Below are positions 39,825 through 57,255 of a stretch of 57,255 nt of DNA, piece by piece. The number at the start of each line of letters is the position of its first letter. The first letter of the stretch is position 1. This stretch comes from Ignavibacteriaceae bacterium (lineage in GTDB: Bacteria > Bacteroidota > Ignavibacteria > Ignavibacteriales > Ignavibacteriaceae): contig JARLHC010000121.1 of NCBI GenBank assembly GCA_031292455.1, positions 1-57,255 of the forward strand, written 5' to 3'. The position numbers and the translations under genes were made by a program. The notes below the pieces were generated by a model, which did not search any database, was not told the DNA's origin, and was given only the letters and a program-made list of their open reading frames with translations.

Positions 39825-39960
39825 AATAATTCCAATAATTTATTAATAAACAAAATTCAATATTTAATCCATTCATTCACCGGAATACTGTATTCTATTT
39901 GCAAAACCCAGCTACGCAAAAATATACAATTATTTTCTAATCCCTAAGGAGTTATTGGGC

Positions 39961-40056
39961 AAAAAGCGGGTTTATTAGCTTTGAAAGTGAATTGAAATTT
40001 TAGTAATTTTACCCTGCATCCATAGCTCAGTTGGTAGAGCATCTGACTCTTAATCA
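39961..40056 (+). repeat. Left attachment repeat (attL)
   Basis: 96 bp from AAAAAGCGGG to CTCTTAATCA, repeated at 45695-45790 with two mismatches (40013 and 40015). It includes the tRNA promoter (TTGAAA-N17-TAATTT) and the tRNA 5' half through the anticodon loop. Sequence to the left is chromosome; sequence to the right (TAAGAATTCC) is element. Crossover probably took place in the tRNA part. Confidence 0.9.
40016..40056 (+). pseudogene. tRNA-Lys 5' fragment
   Basis: GCATCCATAGCTCAGTTGG through the anticodon region CTCTTAATCA is identical to the intact tRNA-Lys, then the sequence diverges. The 3' half (variable loop, T-arm, acceptor 3' strand) is missing. Its promoter is intact, so it should still be transcribed into the element. 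Confidence 0.9.
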
Positions 40057-41568: not shown

Positions 41569-42123
41569 ATGAAGTTACAATTATTAATAGCTTTATTGTT
41601 TTCTATTTTTATTATAGGTTGTGCCGGAAGCTATAAATCAAGCGTAACGCCTGGATATGATCCCCCGAAATCAACAGAGATAGCGATTATATATCTAGAT
41701 TATCCAGATGTCAATATTTCCTCCATAGCAACGAAGGTATTACAAGAAAATCTAAAAAGATGTAGACTCTATGATTTTTTGTCAGCAGAAAAAACAGAGG
41801 ACTTGTTGCAAAAAAATAACATCACTATACCTAAAAGATTTACTAAAACATTTATCCAGAATTTAAAAGGATTGTTAAATGTAAAATACCTTTTAACTGG
41901 TGGAGTAACTATGTGGAAAGAGGGTTCCGCTGGATATCCCATTGCAAGTTCTACTGAATTCGGAGCATCATTAACTATGTATGACCTTGAGAGTGGTGAA
42001 GTTGTTTGGGCTGTAAGTGGTGAATCAACTGGGGGTTCTGGTATATTTTCAGACCCACCTGATGCTAAAGCCTATGAAGTATTTAGAGGAATGCTTAAGA
42101 AATGGGATGGCTTCTGTAAATAA
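41569..42123 (+). CDS. CsgG-like outer-membrane lipoprotein
   Basis: A 184-aa lipoprotein with lipobox FIIGC. IAIIYLDYPDVNISSIATKVL and RCRLYDFLSAEKTEDLLQ resemble the CsgG/DUF799-type fold, followed by LNVKYLLTGGVTMWKEG and SLTMYDLESGEVVWAVSGES, which are the usual secondary features. Other CsgG-like lipoproteins are involved in curli export or related surface assembly, but no export partners occur in this element. A GGAG site stands before the start. It follows the SNase-like gene by 42 bp and is convergent with the RepA-like gene. Confidence 0.65.
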   Translation: MKLQLLIALLFSIFIIGCAGSYKSSVTPGYDPPKSTEIAIIYLDYPDVNISSIATKVLQENLKRCRLYDFLSAEKTEDLLQKNNITIPKRFTKTFIQNLKGLLNVKYLLTGGVTMWKEGSAGYPIASSTEFGASLTMYDLESGEVVWAVSGESTGGSGIFSDPPDAKAYEVFRGMLKKWDGFCK

Positions 42124-42270
42124 AGCCAATTACGAATTTTAGTTTTGTTTGCATAAATTATTTCCAGAATTTTTATTCACTCACGCAAGTTCGTCACACA
42201 CCACTAAATTTTTGATTTTTACAGAACAAATAATAATTAATTCAATTACAGAATAACTAGTAAAAATTTG

Positions 42271-42523
42271 TTTATAGTATTTATAGTTATTATTTGATTT
42301 AGAAAAAAGATTTCTAGATTATTTCCCTATGGGAAATAATCTCAGAATAAAAATTTTTGGAAAAAATATTTCCAAAAATATTATTCTGAAATAATATCAC
42401 ATAATAAAATTTTATTATCTATAAACAGATTTTATTGATAATTAATTTTTACACTATAAATACTATAAACACTATTTTGTATTCAATTGATATTTAATTC
42501 TGTAAATACTATAAACACTATAA
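42271..42523. repeat. Palindrome and iteron cluster (candidate origin)
   Basis: Three consecutive palindromes: AGATTATTTCCC-TAT-GGGAAATAATCT (42316-42342); CAGAATAA..TTTTTGGAAA with its complement (42343-42388); and the perfect 18-mer ATAATAAAATTTTATTAT (42401-42418). Flanking them are ACTATAAAT/ACTATAAAC repeats at 42453-42475 and 42508-42523, with an inverted copy TTTATAGTATTTATAGT at 42271-42287. The cluster is directly beside the RepA-like gene. It may be an origin, or a strong bidirectional terminator between the convergent genes. Confidence 0.55.
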
Positions 42524-43587
42524 TTAAATTTTATTGATATACTCATCTGCCATTCTATAAGCCCCAAACGTACTACCCGAAACCAAAAATCCTTCCTTTT
42601 TAAGCCCTTTCAATTGGCTTGAAATATTAGGTTGACTTTTCCCTAGTTGTGCAGCAATGAATCCCGTCTTTAGTTCTGTATCTGGATAGAGTTTAAATAC
42701 ATTTAATATTTCCTTTCTTTCCGGTGTTGTTTCTATTTCAATTTTGTCTCCAATAAATTTCCATTCCATTAATTGTTTGTCAAAACTCAAATTATATTGG
42801 CCATCCTCCCTCTCTCTACCCTCAACATGAAGAATAGCTTTCCCTGATAATCCGGACTTTTCCAAAATCCACACAGAATCAGCTGGTGCAGTTATTCCTT
42901 GTGTCCCAGAAACTGAATGGAAAATGTTGTTATCTCTCCCCTTCCTAGTGTGGTGTATTGCAAGAATTCCAATTTGTAAGCTCATTGCTATTTTCTGCAA
43001 TTGCAACAATATTTTGTAGTCTTTATGAAAACTATAATTTTTTATGTTATCAGAGGACATACTGCCCCCTAAGGGATCAATGACAATTAATTTCAAATTC
43101 GGAATATCTTTATGGAGGTCTGTAATAAGGGCTTCTAAATTCAAACCGATCTCTAAGCGACCCTTCCCATATTCAAAAAATATATTTTTCATTTCTTTTT
43201 GAACTATACTTTTTTCAATCTCTCTGTTCTCTAAAAGTCTTTCTATTTGATTTTTAACATTGCCAATGCTTTCTTCATAAGGAATATAAAGGATGCTTCC
43301 TTTTTCAGTTTTGAACGATTTAAATAAATCATTGCCTAAAACTATTTCTACCGAGATTAATCTAGCAAGTCTTGATTTTCCAACTTTTGGATCACCACAT
43401 AGAATTGTTAATCCTACCGGTATTAATGGATCTATTATCCATTTGGAACTATTCCCTTCATAACTTAATAATTCATTACCATTAATAGTCCGGGACTCAT
43501 AATCACTATAATGTTTTTGCAGGTTTACTTGTAGTTTATCCTCAGTTGCTTCATATACTATTTTCTTAACTTTGGGATATATTCCAT
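42524..43587 (-). CDS. RepA-like replicative ATPase with frame break near its start
   Basis: An AAA/RecA-fold plasmid RepA-type protein, about 354 aa if the break is crossed. In the main frame (open from 43588) are Walker A GDPKVGKS at about 65-72, ILYIPYEES, LKLIVIDPLGGSMSSDN (Walker B), ILAIHHTRKG and HSVSGTQGITAPADSVW, then a C-terminal winged-helix (AAQLGKSQPNISSQLKGLK). Yet that frame has no ATG, GTG or TTG before the Walker A. The well-placed ATG at 43587 (AAAGAGG, 4 bp after the previous stop) reads nine codons, MEYIPKLRK, then TAG. A -1 slip on AAAA before TAG would restore the frame. Either a programmed frameshift or an inactivating indel; an ATG at 43192 would give a fragment without Walker A. 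Confidence 0.7.
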
Positions 43588-43591
43588 TTTA

Positions 43592-44029
43592 TTACCTCTT
43601 TGAATATGAAATTAATTTATTTTGGAATTCGGTTATTTGATTATCGAATTCACCTTTGGAATATTTATTAACCAAGGGTCTAAAATCTTTTCTGGTTAAT
43701 TGAAAAACTAAAATTTCCAATACTTTATCAGTAAACCTAAATATCAATAACTGGTTATGGGTTACTAATCTGGTTGCTCTTACAAATTCATCTAAGTCTG
43801 AATTCTTAAATAATGCATATTTTTCTTTCATAGCAGTACAGAACCATAAATCTGAATAACCATATTTAAATGATTTTGGAATTTGCTGTAAATGAATATT
43901 CAACCAAATCATTTCAGGATTAATATTTCCAATGGAATGATACTTCACTAAATCATAAATGCCTGTCCTGTCTTTATTCTCATATTTAGGATTTAAAAGA
44001 TAAATGCTAATTAATTTTTCGGCTTTCAT
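43592..44029 (-). CDS. Hypothetical protein encoded before RepA
   Basis: About 145 aa, no recognised domain. It is Lys-, Phe- and Asn-rich, with predicted helices and strands (KAEKLISIYLLNPKYENKD, then RATRLVTHNQLLIFRFTD). The ATG at 44029 has GGAG six bases upstream; an ATG at 44041 is possible. It ends in TAATAA, the second stop being in the same frame as RepA. Its 3' end contains the ribosome site for the next ATG, so translation is likely coupled. By position it may regulate or prime replication, but that is only a guess. Confidence 0.6.
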   Translation of the reverse strand: MKAEKLISIYLLNPKYENKDRTGIYDLVKYHSIGNINPEMIWLNIHLQQIPKSFKYGYSDLWFCTAMKEKYALFKNSDLDEFVRATRLVTHNQLLIFRFTDKVLEILVFQLTRKDFRPLVNKYSKGEFDNQITEFQNKLISYSKR

Positions 44030-45423: not shown

Positions 45424-45694
45424 TCTTGCCTCCAGATATAGTTGTTTGTTAAATAATAATTTTTGAATTGTTGATTTGTTATTGAATAATGCAGGGGATA
45501 TCCCAGGGACTCCAAGGGATTGAAAGTAATATTAGCTTGATATAATTGATGGGTAAATAACTCGATTGCCCCAGTGAGCCCCGGGAATTGATTGACTACT
45601 GATTCCATTTCTGATTTCGAATTAATGAATTTGAAATGATAATAATGGATGGGGTTTGACGGAATTTCGGAATAAATATTGCTATCAATTGAAT

Positions 45695-45790
45695 AAAAAG
45701 CGGGTTTATTAGCTTTGAAAGTGAATTGAAATTTTAGTAATTTTACTCCGCATCCATAGCTCAGTTGGTAGAGCATCTGACTCTTAATCA
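45695..45790 (+). repeat. Right attachment repeat (attR)
   Basis: The second copy of the 96-bp repeat, with ACTCC in place of ACCCT just before the tRNA. Here it runs into the full 3' half of tRNA-Lys, so the working tRNA gene now has a promoter and 5' half carried by the element. The 272 bp between the integrase start and this repeat hold no gene I can defend. Confidence 0.9.
45715..45743 (+). promoter_or_regulatory. tRNA-Lys promoter inside the att repeat
   Basis: TTGAAA, exactly 17 bp, TAATTT, with the first tRNA base at 45750. It fits a housekeeping sigma promoter. The same promoter is present in the left repeat in front of the truncated tRNA. Confidence 0.65.
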
Positions 45791-45822
45791 GCAGGTCGGC
45801 GGTTCAAACCCGCCTGGATGCA
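45750..45822 (+). tRNA. tRNA-Lys (CUU)
   Basis: A 73-nt cloverleaf. GCATCCA pairs with TGGATGC, the D-arm is AGCTCAGTTGGTAGAGC, the anticodon loop CTCTTAA gives CTT (reads AAG), and the T-loop is GGTTCAAACC. The 3' CCA is not encoded. It is the integration target of element 1; its 5' half is now element-borne. A terminator follows at once. Confidence 0.96.
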
Positions 45823-45828
45823 CGAAAC

Positions 45829-46069: not shown

Positions 46070-46087
46070 CAATAAATGGAGGAGATC

Positions 46088-46267
46088 ATGTTTGAGCTTA
46101 TCATTCCAGAACGTCCAAAAACAGAAACTAAACAATTTACTATTACTATGAAAATCGAGCACATAGATGAACTAGTAAGACAAGCAAAAGAACAAGCTAT
46201 TACGTTTCATAAACTTACCAGAGCGATTTTAATAAGTTACATTGAGTATATAAAAGGAAGAAAATAA
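46088..46267 (+). CDS. Small ribbon-helix-helix-type regulator
   Basis: 59 aa. A beta strand (KQFTITM), a helix (KIEHIDELVRQAKEQ) and a second helix (TFHKLTRAILISYIEYIK) are in the order of an Arc/CopG-like RHH fold, so a DNA-binding dimer is likely. The ATG at 46088 is used because GGAGGAGA stands just before it; an ATG at 46076 lies upstream of that site. The consensus promoter and 8-bp inverted repeat directly upstream suggest autoregulation and copy or lysogeny-type control of the primase-helicase gene. Homology itself cannot be proven at this length. Confidence 0.6.
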   Translation: MFELIIPERPKTETKQFTITMKIEHIDELVRQAKEQAITFHKLTRAILISYIEYIKGRK

Positions 46268-46590
46268 AACTTGACCTGAATGAGTAAAATGGCTTACATT
46301 TAATTAGAAACATAAAACACCGAAACAGCATACTCTACCAATAGAAACATTTTTTTACCTACTCGAAACAGCCAACACTAAAACCCGAATATTATATAGG
46401 AGTAGGAGTTGTTTTAGGCTCCACTCCCTCTTTACTCCCAAACCGACAACTTAAAAACAATCTCCCTTAAAACTGTAAAACAGAATTATTTATTAACCTC
46501 AGAGCGAGTGACTCTGCGGTATATAGAACATAACTGATGAACCAGGGCTCATATAAGCAATGAAGGTTTATCATAATAGAGGAGAAATCC
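46268..46590. other. Leader region with GAAACA repeats and hairpin
   Basis: 323 bp before the primase-helicase gene. GAAACA occurs at 46307, 46322, 46344 and 46365. A strong hairpin GGAGT-A-GGAG/CTCC-ACTCC lies at 46399-46427 with a 10-nt loop. GAGGAGAAATCC then forms the ribosome site. The hairpin may be an attenuator or antisense target; the repeats may be a protein binding site. No ORF. Confidence 0.5.
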
Positions 46591-49083
46591 ATGTATAATG
46601 AAATAGAAGTTTCATGGCAGGATAGAGTTTTTAACTCGAAGGGTTTGAAATTAAACTCATTAAATAAAATTTTAGATACAATACAAACATCAGATGATAT
46701 AAGAAGAAAAGTTATTGAGTTACGGAAAATTAAAGACGAAAAACAGCAGAAAAAATATAAAGAAGAAAACTTCCCTTACTTTAACCTAGGTACTTTTAAG
46801 GACGGCCATAGAAAAAATGCAAACTTAATTAGTTCATCGCATTTCATTTTTGACTATGACAATCTAGATGAGAAGCTTGATGTTATGAGAACTCAGCTCA
46901 AAAAAGATAATCGAGTATTTGCTTTCTTTGTTTCGCCTCGGGGCAATGGATTAAAAGTTATTTATCGTTTAGATAAAGCAATAACTGATCCAAATACCTT
47001 TTCAAAATTATATAAGCACTATGCGAAAGAGTTTAAGCTTGATTTAGGAGCCGACCCGGATAAAACTTCCGATGCTTCCAGGCCATGCTTTTTTAGTTAT
47101 GATGCATTTACATATGTAAATAATGATTCCATTCCTCTTAGAACGGAGATAATATTTGATGATGTAGAGTGCGCTAAAGTTGCTTCCACAGAAAAGAGAG
47201 CTGAACTTATTTCCAACTTATCCGGTACTAATTCAGGAAACAGGACTCCTACAGCAACGCAGCTTCTAGGTAACTTTATTGTTAAAGGAGTAGACAGAAT
47301 GATCTCTCATGAAATACTACAGATGTGGAATAAACAAAATATGCCGCCGCTGCCAGTTGAGAAAATCACTTACATTGTAAATGATATGTATGATAGGTAT
47401 GAAGAAAAAGAAAAATATCTTTCTGTAAAATTTGTTGAAAGGAATAATTCCTATGTTAAAACAATAAAACAAGGGAAGGACTTTGTTCAGACAATGGTAA
47501 CATCTTTTAAGATCATACCGAAGGAACTACTTGTACTAGACAACAGCGACTGCTTAAAGTGTGACATCATTTCTTCGCAAGATAATCATTATGAGGACGT
47601 ACTTATTGAAAATACAGATTGGCATTCTAAGCAGAAATTCCTGAAGGCACTGGGACACCAGGACTGTGTATTCCTTGGATCCGATAACGATCTTCAGGCA
47701 CTATGCCAGTATACGCAACTAAACATCCCCTTAAGAAAGAAAGGAACTAAAGTAATTGGTTTACATAATGATGTTTGGGTTATTGAAGACATAAATATAA
47801 CTAAAGCAGGAAAAACTGAAGAGTTACAAATAGTTCCTTATGACAAGGGTTCTGATGCATTTTATCATAGAATAAGCTATAGGTTTTTAGATGATAATAG
47901 TAAACAGGATATGCGTCGTATACTCTATGAAAACATTCTTAATATAAATGAAAAAAGAATTATTCTGCCGTATATAGGTTGGCTGTTTGCCACTCCGGTT
48001 AAATGCCAGCTTGAAAAGATAACAGGAGCATTTCCTTTATTATTTAATCATGGTGGTGCAGGTTCAGGTAAGACCAGCACTGCAAAAGTATTTGCTAGAC
48101 TAGGAGGCTACAAGGACCCTGCCCCTATGAGTGTCACAATGAAAACCTTCCCACTACTAAAAATGCTTTCCAGTACGAATAGCATTCCTCAATGGTATGA
48201 TGAGTTCAAGGTTTCAGATATGAAGGAAACAGATGTTGACAATATTTTAAGGTTTATGAGGAAAGTTTATTCCGGAGAACAAGAATCTAAGGGCCGGGCA
48301 GATCAGACAATAGAAAATTATAAATTATCTGCTCCCATGGTCGTTATGGGTGAATGGAATATTAACCAACCCGCTATTATGGAACGAGTTGTGTTGGTTA
48401 GGTGCACAGATGTAGTAAAAAAGAACCTGGATATGCAGAAGGCTTTTCAAAATATTGAAGCCCTAGAGCTGGAAGCTTTCATGCCAGAATATATTCAGTA
48501 CTGCTTGAACACCGATGTTAAGGAATTGTTTACTGTAGCCAAAGAATTTATTATCGATCATTTCGGTCAGATAAAGGTAGCTCCAAGAATTATAAACAAC
48601 CTGTCTGTAATGCTTGTTGGGTTGGAGTTGTTTAGGGGTTATGCTGGTTACGCACATTTACCAGTGCCTGACATTGACTATGAAAGACTTATAGAGGATC
48701 AGCTTAAAGAGATAACTGGTTCGCAACGTGGAATGGTTAGGTCCGCAGTGGATCAACTGATTGAGGAATTGTCCATTATGGCAGAGAAAAGTGAAATAAC
48801 TCCCCTTGAGGATTATAAATTCGCGGATGTTGATAACAATAAGAATGTCCTGGCAATCAGGTTTAATAAAATATTTCCTGACTTTAAGGTATATGCTAAA
48901 AAAACTAATTATGAGGGAGACTTGTTAGATAAATCCTCATATCTAAAATTGTTTGATGAATGCGATTATATTATAAATAAAAACTGGAATGTTAAATTCG
49001 GATTAGTTACAAACAGATGTATTTGCATAGACATTGAAAAAGCCAAGAATGCAGGATTAAACCTTGACGGGTTCCGCCTTTAA
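46591..49083 (+). CDS. Primase-helicase (BT4734/VirE-N-type primase-polymerase plus AAA helicase)
   Basis: 830 aa. The N-terminus (about 15-200) resembles BT4734/VirE-N proteins, an archaeo-eukaryotic primase relative: SSSHFIFDYDNLDE supplies a DxD pair, and SPRGNGLKVIYRL is the other typical block. A middle linker (250-470) leads to a DUF927/D5-like AAA domain with Walker A GGAGSGKT at about 489, WYDEF as Walker B, and an RVVLVRC arginine-finger candidate. Such proteins prime and unwind DNA at the origin of phages, satellites and plasmids. The origin-like repeats lie just downstream. The gene is preceded by a GAGGAG ribosome site. Confidence 0.78.
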   Translation: MYNEIEVSWQDRVFNSKGLKLNSLNKILDTIQTSDDIRRKVIELRKIKDEKQQKKYKEENFPYFNLGTFKDGHRKNANLISSSHFIFDYDNLDEKLDVMRTQLKKDNRVFAFFVSPRGNGLKVIYRLDKAITDPNTFSKLYKHYAKEFKLDLGADPDKTSDASRPCFFSYDAFTYVNNDSIPLRTEIIFDDVECAKVASTEKRAELISNLSGTNSGNRTPTATQLLGNFIVKGVDRMISHEILQMWNKQNMPPLPVEKITYIVNDMYDRYEEKEKYLSVKFVERNNSYVKTIKQGKDFVQTMVTSFKIIPKELLVLDNSDCLKCDIISSQDNHYEDVLIENTDWHSKQKFLKALGHQDCVFLGSDNDLQALCQYTQLNIPLRKKGTKVIGLHNDVWVIEDINITKAGKTEELQIVPYDKGSDAFYHRISYRFLDDNSKQDMRRILYENILNINEKRIILPYIGWLFATPVKCQLEKITGAFPLLFNHGGAGSGKTSTAKVFARLGGYKDPAPMSVTMKTFPLLKMLSSTNSIPQWYDEFKVSDMKETDVDNILRFMRKVYSGEQESKGRADQTIENYKLSAPMVVMGEWNINQPAIMERVVLVRCTDVVKKNLDMQKAFQNIEALELEAFMPEYIQYCLNTDVKELFTVAKEFIIDHFGQIKVAPRIINNLSVMLVGLELFRGYAGYAHLPVPDIDYERLIEDQLKEITGSQRGMVRSAVDQLIEELSIMAEKSEITPLEDYKFADVDNNKNVLAIRFNKIFPDFKVYAKKTNYEGDLLDKSSYLKLFDECDYIINKNWNVKFGLVTNRCICIDIEKAKNAGLNLDGFRL

Positions 49084-56616: not shown

Positions 56617-57255
56617 TTAAACTCTAACATCATTAACTATTTGTTTTAAGGTTATTCTATCTTCGCTTTTAATCCTTCTGTAATCAAAAAATGGAGCTAG
56701 TATAATATTTTGATCAGGATACTTTATTAAGCTCGAACCGGGGAGGTTAATAAACCTTGAATGACCTAAGTTGAATAGATTTATAAATTCATTCCAGTAT
56801 GACGAGCCCAAACAAATTGTTAATGAGGGCTTTACTTCTATCCATTTCTTATAAATAATTGGATAACGAAAAGAACGGACATCGGATAAATACTTTTTAT
56901 AATCATCCTTACTATAACCAAATATTTTATTATAATCTTCAGACCAACTAGAAGTATTTGGTCTTGGTAGAGGAAATAATTCTGCTAAAAAGAAATATGA
57001 GTAGTCTTTATTGAACATATTTTGACGGTACTCTTTTTTACCAAGCTTATGTTCTTCTAAATATTTATCATATAATAAGTCTGCTATTATACCCCATACG
57101 GGGGTTTTACTTGAAGCATCCTTAAAATATTGAGATTCATTTCTGCATATAACTAATTGTTCCTCTAAATTCTTTTCAGTAATGGGGTCGCCACCTTCCT
57201 CAATTCCTACAAACCATATTTTGCTATTTATATTTCCAGAACCTATGTACTTGCA
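56617..57255 (-). CDS. Uracil-DNA-glycosylase-like protein, N-terminus outside the window
   Basis: The frame is open from the stop at 56617 to the window end, so at least 212 residues belong to it; the ATG at 57018 is internal. Near the visible N-terminus, SKIWFVGIEEGGDPIT resembles the FVGxEPG strand-loop of uracil-DNA-glycosylase-fold proteins. KPSLTICLGSSYWNEFINLF resembles the second Rossmann-like block. No clear catalytic His/Asn pair could be assigned. Function is therefore only a fold-level guess. Confidence 0.55.
   Translation of the reverse strand, partial: CKYIGSGNINSKIWFVGIEEGGDPITEKNLEEQLVICRNESQYFKDASSKTPVWGIIADLLYDKYLEEHKLGKKEYRQNMFNKDYSYFFLAELFPLPRPNTSSWSEDYNKIFGYSKDDYKKYLSDVRSFRYPIIYKKWIEVKPSLTICLGSSYWNEFINLFNLGHSRFINLPGSSLIKYPDQNIILAPFFDYRRIKSEDRITLKQIVNDVRV

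Follow-up and report, generated by a model that had tools for sequence, protein, structure and literature searches.

A frame break at the start of a helicase gene in an apparent tRNA-Lys element of an Ignavibacteriaceae bacterium

Organisation of the locus

The contig JARLHC010000121.1 of an Ignavibacteriaceae bacterium was analysed as one stretch of 57,255 nucleotides (the window), and within it a region of approximately 5.7 kb reads as an element integrated in a tRNA-Lys gene. This reading is drawn from the sequence: a gene of a tyrosine integrase is found beside the tRNA gene, and the region is flanked by direct repeats that contain part of the same tRNA (Table 1). The integrase sequence shows the residues R, K, HxxR, H and Y, which we take to have catalytic-type roles. 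Between the repeats there are also a gene of an ATPase, an ORF of 149 amino acids lying upstream of it and two putative passenger genes on the opposite strand.

Table 1. Features of the putative integrated element and of the broken ATPase gene (positions are those of the window)
Feature	Position	Strand	Evidence or remark
Left 103-nt direct repeat	39954..40056		95% identical to the right copy, 5734 bp away; ends in the anticodon region
Passenger gene, 275 aa	40699..41526	+	weak SNase similarity (E 0.01, below cut-off)
Passenger gene, 184 aa	41569..42123	+	lipoprotein-like N-terminus; weak CsgG similarity (E 0.025, below cut-off)
AT-rich intergenic stretch, possible iterons	42262..42525		four GTTTATAGTATTTATAGT-like matches (two overlapping), in both orientations
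RepA/DnaB-type helicase ATPase, open frame of 354 codons	42524..43588	-	AAA_25 E 1.8e-18, HTH_5 E 3.2e-5 (Pfam)
C-terminal winged-helix segment, residues 289-334	42587..42724	-	HTH_5 match
Walker A GDPKVGKS, residues 65-72 of the open frame	43373..43396	-	
Nine-codon ORF MEYIPKLRK and TAG	43558..43587	-	out of frame with the ATPase
C_CCA_AAG, canonical in-phase X_XXY_YYZ -1 slippery heptamer	43570..43576	-	listing of in-phase heptamers
Upstream ORF, 149 aa	43592..44041	-	no family found; same frame as the ATPase
AAGAGG, Shine-Dalgarno-like	43595..43600	-	7 nt 5' of ATG 43587
Tyrosine integrase, 336 aa	44413..45423	-	Phage_integrase E 9.2e-37
Right 103-nt direct repeat, putative att site	45688..45790		5' half of tRNA-Lys and upstream sequence
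tRNA-Lys (CTT), putative integration target	45750..45823	+	

Pfam, NCBIfam and PHROGs contain no family that matches the 149-aa ORF at E 0.001. The ORF is present in one of the 391 genomes of the class, that is in its own, and no tblastn match (E up to 0.01) was obtained in 69 loci, those of the ATPase relatives included. Its fold predicted without an alignment reached a pLDDT of 40.6 and is not interpretable. In the DNA between the ATPase and the passenger genes the G+C content falls to 0.203 (42100-42499), and of five matches to the 18-bp repeat GTTTATAGTATTTATAGT in the window, where 0.20 were expected, four are situated in 42262-42525. By its composition and repeats this AT-rich stretch is possibly an origin of replication with iterons. 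Promoter and terminator scans stayed at chance level.

The ATPase protein

The Pfam matches to both ends of the protein (Table 1) are accompanied by a match of a four-sequence profile to RSF1010 RepA (1g8y, E 4.6e-4); the same profile also matches ArsR-type and other regulators through the winged helix. An AlphaFold2 model was prepared from an alignment of 25 sequences, drawn from 24 of 52 loci after repeats, partial and weak loci and those of the genome samples had been left out, and shows a mean pLDDT of 79.1 with values below 50 for residues 1-28. In Foldseek the model resembles Twinkle, DnaB, Rad51/Dmc1 and RSF1010 RepA, with a TM of 0.74 normalised by 1nlf and 1olo. Walker A, Walker B and the RecA-type core fold are all present, the residues G59, K71, E105, D171 and H213 are invariant in the 25 sequences, and homology to the relatives starts only at about residue 33. 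By its sequence and its modelled fold the protein is a RepA/DnaB-type helicase ATPase, for which a hexamer and unwinding activity are predicted; the description RepA-like ATPase, given in an earlier note on this DNA, thus agrees with the AAA_25 match, the 1g8y match and the fold comparison. With RSF1010 RepA (1g8y, 1nlf, 1olo) it has in common the fold of RecA-type hexameric helicases. It differs from that protein in having 14% identity with it, in the additional C-terminal winged helix and in the frame broken at its start.

The frame break

When the minus strand is read base by base, the AAGAGG is followed by TAATAA (43594-43589), by an ATG (43587-43585) with a spacing of 7 nt from AAGAGG, and by TAG (43560-43558), which closes the frame of this ATG after nine codons. 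A ribosome starting at ATG 43587 must therefore switch frame before the TAG in order to read the ATPase. The frame that carries Walker A begins after TAATAA and has its earliest ATG, GTG or TTG at codon 133 (43192), from which an ORF of 222 aa would be annotated, beginning downstream of Walker A and so missing it. All three of these points, the well-placed ATG with its nine codons, the Walker A frame devoid of a start in front and the defective annotation from 43192, had been put forward in the earlier note and were borne out. The upstream 149-aa ORF lies in the same frame as the ATPase, with TAATAA between them, and its 3' end reads AAG AGG TAA before the second TAA. Well-placed ribosome sites are found at 18 of 44 ORFs in the window, and the one of ATG 43587 sits at the junction with the upstream gene.

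Codon usage was scanned over the window, keeping segments of at least 50 codons with a score of at least 7 and flagging those in which the first start is preceded by more than 25 coding codons. Four of the 58 segments kept were flagged. Two of them are at the ends of the window (bases 2-2770 and 56617-57255), and the apparent lack of a start in the latter belongs to a segment that runs off the end of the contig. The integrase comes third; its ATG stands behind GGAGG and the loss amounts to 3.9 nats over 36 codons. For the remaining one, the ATPase, the loss is 29.8 nats over 132 codons. The ATPase is thus the sole internal coding segment of the window with such a start defect, and as no other internal gene is broken in this way, the assembly is not generally rich in frame errors.

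Within the gene, the ATPase frame has the highest score of the three frames in every 15-codon window computed from 43590 to 43302; frame 0 is at times slightly positive, with a maximum of 2.86. Over the ten codons before 43558 the ATPase frame is weakly favoured (1.7 versus 0.1 for the frame of the ATG), and after this position it is clear (4.6 versus -5.5 and -15.5 over 22 codons). Since the coding signal is clear from about 43558 and weak before it, the change of frame is placed between ATG 43587 and TAG 43558. A late internal start was considered as well and is disfavoured by codon usage. It is therefore confirmed that the frame break at the start of this otherwise open helicase gene is real and isolated.

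Relatives of the ATPase

No close relative of the ATPase was found in the collections searched, the best being 40% identical. With the single ATPase protein as a query the genome contigs gave no relatives, and with a four-sequence alignment they gave seven loci, all distant, three of which are on the contigs of loci L002-L004. In viral contigs, single-protein queries with the integrase, the ATPase or the 149-aa ORF found nothing, and alignment queries found 29 and 4 loci, all of them distant. Seven distant records were found among phages and nine among plasmids, and these 16 lie outside the comparison of starts. In the genome samples, which overlap and in each of which the own genome is included, matches were present in 10 of 196 (E up to 1e-5), and in 10 of 391 and 4 of 395 (E up to 1e-20).

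The Walker A frame was recognised in 36 of the 52 loci examined; some of the 16 misses are truncated or divergent. An in-frame ATG precedes Walker A in all 36 (three of them repeats of the same contigs, and all at no more than 40% identity), and it follows that the break does not characterise the family. Over 300 codons precede Walker A in 26 of these loci, a length in which an ATG can hardly fail to be present, so that they say little about the start. The comparable rows are ten (eight distinct), namely L003-L007, L012 and L045-L048. Some 64 codons separate ATG 43587 from Walker A. This agrees with the stand-alone relatives L003, L005, L006, L007, L012, L047 and L048, in which Walker A follows the first in-frame start at a distance of 37-101 codons; L004, with 159 codons, is outside this range.

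The loci from Ignavibacteria (L002/L044, L003/L045 and L004/L046) encode ATPases 35-40% identical to the present one over the core. Integrase matches accompany several ATPase relatives: L002/L044 and L003/L045 also carry tyrosine-integrase matches, L002 having the best of all, with 38% identity over 343 residues. The groups of L002, L003 and L004 differ from the present locus by the in-frame ATG and by having no relative of the 149-aa ORF; Walker A is 445 codons into the frame of L002 and 167 codons into that of L004. In L008, from a genome of the same order, an ATPase without Walker A (1489-2319) directly adjoins a tmRNA gene (2340-2694), and this locus is apparently a decayed integrated element.

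The slippery heptamer and its surroundings

An in-phase slippery heptamer, C_CCA_AAG, is present upstream of the 0-frame stop. After a -1 slip the codons CCC AAA GTT would be read and the ATPase frame entered, with a predicted product of 354 aa and an N-terminus of MEYIPK. All 64 heptamers of this kind were measured in E. coli, and in the available part of that report C_CC.A_AA.G is in the top three for efficiency, reaching 54% with the IS3 pseudoknot, the maximum of the 64; without stimulators the best three motifs gave about 0.3%, a value that may rise to as much as 3.7% in the most favourable 3' context (PMC4066793). The motif is also rated highly shift-prone in the accessible text of PMC5009743. 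It is absent from the heptamers that the portion of PMC4066793 at hand names as frequent in IS1 and IS3 elements, 72% of which are A_AA.A_AA.G or A_AA.A_AA.A. The earlier note had placed the slip at AGA-AAA just before the stop, and this looks wrong: the A_AAA tetramer is weak in E. coli, being the weakest of six clearly responsive tetramers in the same partial source (PMC4066793), in a tandem slip the tRNA that reads AGA would be mispaired on AAG, and the strongest heptamer is just upstream. Transcriptional slippage was ruled out, the longest run of A in the stretch being 4.

The classical stimulators were sought around the heptamer. Downstream hairpins gave no candidates under the rule taken from the available part of PMC4066793, as coded here for hairpins, pseudoknots being outside the scan. 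A looser scan gave a fold of 79 nt with -5.3 kcal/mol closed by A-U, a fold of 29 nt with -0.3 kcal/mol and nothing else, and in five stretches the folding of the RNA was no better than that of shuffled sequences (z from +0.23 to +1.38). The sole candidate for a Shine-Dalgarno-like stimulator is a GAGG situated 19 nt before the second base of the motif; the stimulatory range given in the consulted part of PMC4066793 is 6-17 nt before that base. Some proven cases of frameshifting are described there as lacking stimulators (PMC4066793).

The chance that a lesion leaves such a motif was estimated with one-base deletions simulated in 42 genes of the window and kept if a stop followed within 5-15 codons; the set of 42 excludes the ATPase ORF, which is truncated, and a spurious one that overlaps the tRNA. 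Any in-phase X_XXY_YYZ appeared in 73 of 769 deletions at real starts and in 204 of 6518 in gene interiors, i.e. in 3-9% (82 of 831 for any heptamer when the two ORFs are included, making 44). A top-three heptamer appeared in 0 of 769 and 10 of 6518, respectively, and CCCAAAG itself in 0 of 769 and 2 of 6518. Some slippery heptamer by chance is thus not rare and one of the strongest class is rare, so that its presence here is unlikely by chance, a conclusion softened by the fact that the class was weighed post hoc.

Interpretation of the break

The earlier note had left the choice between programmed frameshifting and a damaged gene. The evidence leans to damage, and programming stays as a live minority reading; the degrees of probability given below for the four explanations are a matter of judgement and were not computed. 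Most likely the break comes from ordinary damage or from an error of assembly, and its one unusual trait is the C_CCA_AAG in exact phase. Under this explanation, which we consider probable, ATG 43587 would be the true start of the helicase gene, now or until very recently, and a single base would have been gained or lost between it and TAG 43558, either as a recent indel of the lineage or as an error of the draft assembly. If the lesion is real in the cell, most ribosomes would make nine amino acids and stop, and a small fraction may slip by -1 on C_CCA_AAG and give a low level of the 354-aa helicase, in which case the loss would be leaky; the ATG with its ribosome site, the break, the open frame, the heptamer and the element are seen in the sequence, and both the lesion and any slippage are what we infer. 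Because an integrated element is passed on as part of the chromosome and would need no replication helicase of its own for that, the lesion could persist. The well-placed ribosome site of ATG 43587, its distance to Walker A, the lead of the ATPase frame in codon usage from 43590 on, the in-frame ATG in the recognisable relatives, and the failure to find a stimulator of either published type or folding better than in shuffled sequences argue for the same explanation, the truncated ATPase beside the tmRNA gene in L008 offers a parallel for decay of a helicase in an apparently integrated element, and frame-broken genes that are singletons are expected to be indels or sequencing errors according to the available part of PMC3711429, where 4302 of 206,991 predicted frame-broken genes are classed as programmed. 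Against a lesion, no second break is seen in the 354 codons and the ORF of the integrase is intact, so that an indel would need to be recent; frame errors are not general in the assembly, judging by the other internal genes of the window; no homopolymer longer than 4 occurs in the critical stretch, hence a read error is not specially expected there; and the in-phase C_CCA_AAG is unlikely to be there by chance.

Programmed -1 frameshifting, which we find rather unlikely, would have translation start at ATG 43587 and slip at codons 5-6 from CCA AAG to CCC AAA into the ATPase frame; ribosomes that do not slip would end at TAG 43558, and the rate of the shift would set the level of the helicase and hence the replication of the element. 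The direction and the phase are correct for this and the remaining gene is open, the heptamer is the highest of 64 in E. coli in what is available of PMC4066793 and its class was met so seldom in the simulated deletions, and mobile elements hold most of the predicted frameshift genes in the accessible part of PMC3711429. The odds of programming are raised considerably by the heptamer and lowered by the lack of stimulators and by a location so close to the 5' end: no hairpin satisfies the published rule, the GAGG is too distant and the shift would come after six codons only. To this are added the absence of the heptamer from the frequent IS1 and IS3 ones named in the available text (PMC4066793), the lack of any relative found with the same arrangement, the distant ones having in-frame ATGs, and the fact that the motif class was weighed after the sequence had been seen, with a chance of 3-9% for any heptamer. 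The full form of the proposal, in which the tRNA-Lys element gates its own helicase by a -1 shift on C_CCA_AAG six codons in, nearly all ribosomes that initiate abort after nine and helicase comes from slipped ribosomes only, would be a minimal gate on replication of the element that employs the strongest bacterial heptamer with no classical stimulators; it is judged slightly less probable still.

Two further explanations leave the frame of ATG 43587 aside. Code 11 lists ATA, ATT and CTG among its starts, and such non-canonical starts are rare. Use of one of them in the ATPase frame, e.g. of the ATA codons at its front, would make ATG 43587 a decoy or the start of a leader peptide; a slightly shorter N-terminus could still fold, as homology begins at about residue 33 and the first 28 residues are modelled with low confidence, and ATA at 43582 or 43561 is compatible with codon usage. 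The ribosome site, however, suits the ATG (7 nt) and not ATA 43582 (12 nt), and the coding signal that is clear from about 43558 speaks against later starts such as CTG at residue 23, so that this explanation appears very doubtful. Readthrough of TAATAA from the 149-aa ORF into a fusion protein is favoured by the common frame of the two, but it would have to pass two UAA codons in succession at a junction with a ribosome site and an ATG of its own, and the 149-aa ORF is without a match in the 69 loci mentioned above; it is considered extremely improbable.

With the -1 frameshift sites of dnaX, the IS3/IS911 family and lambda G-GT the present site has in common the in-phase X_XXY_YYZ of the V_VVA_AAG class, the -1 direction and the location in mobile DNA. 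It differs from them in having no rule-meeting hairpin, a Shine-Dalgarno-like element out of range, a shift after six codons and no relative found that shares it. The +1 frameshift of prfB (release factor 2) is similar in that a short ORF comes first and the bulk of the protein is read in another frame, as described in the available part of PMC5009743; the present case differs by its -1 direction, by TAG as the stop and by showing no evident logic of autoregulation. No published case of such early, stimulator-free frameshift control of a helicase was seen in a limited search of literature available in part, which makes this a weak statement of absence. If the break is programmed, the replicative helicase of an integrative element would here be controlled by a frameshift that falls in the first six codons and lacks the classical stimulators. 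If it is a lesion, it calls for caution in annotation, as the canonical start gives a helicase without its ATP-binding motif.

Other observations at the tRNA-Lys gene

In the usual integration into a tRNA gene the repeat holds the 3' end of the tRNA. Here the repeat consists of the 5' half of tRNA-Lys and upstream sequence, the left copy is a truncated tRNA, and integration seemingly took place in the anticodon region. A search for the empty site found the flank genes in relatives and no tRNA gene among the nine loci scanned. Antisense to tRNA-Lys (45750-45823, minus strand) there is an Rfam match to Plastid-ycf2 (E 2.6e-8, below the gathering score), which looks like a cross-match to the tRNA. 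Just past the 3' end of tRNA-Lys, at 46076-49083, a 63-aa ORF is found together with an 830-aa protein that has BT4734-like_N (Pfam) and a similarity to PrimPol_Db (E 1.2e-34, below the curated cut-off), and this segment is perhaps a second mobile element at the same tRNA-Lys.
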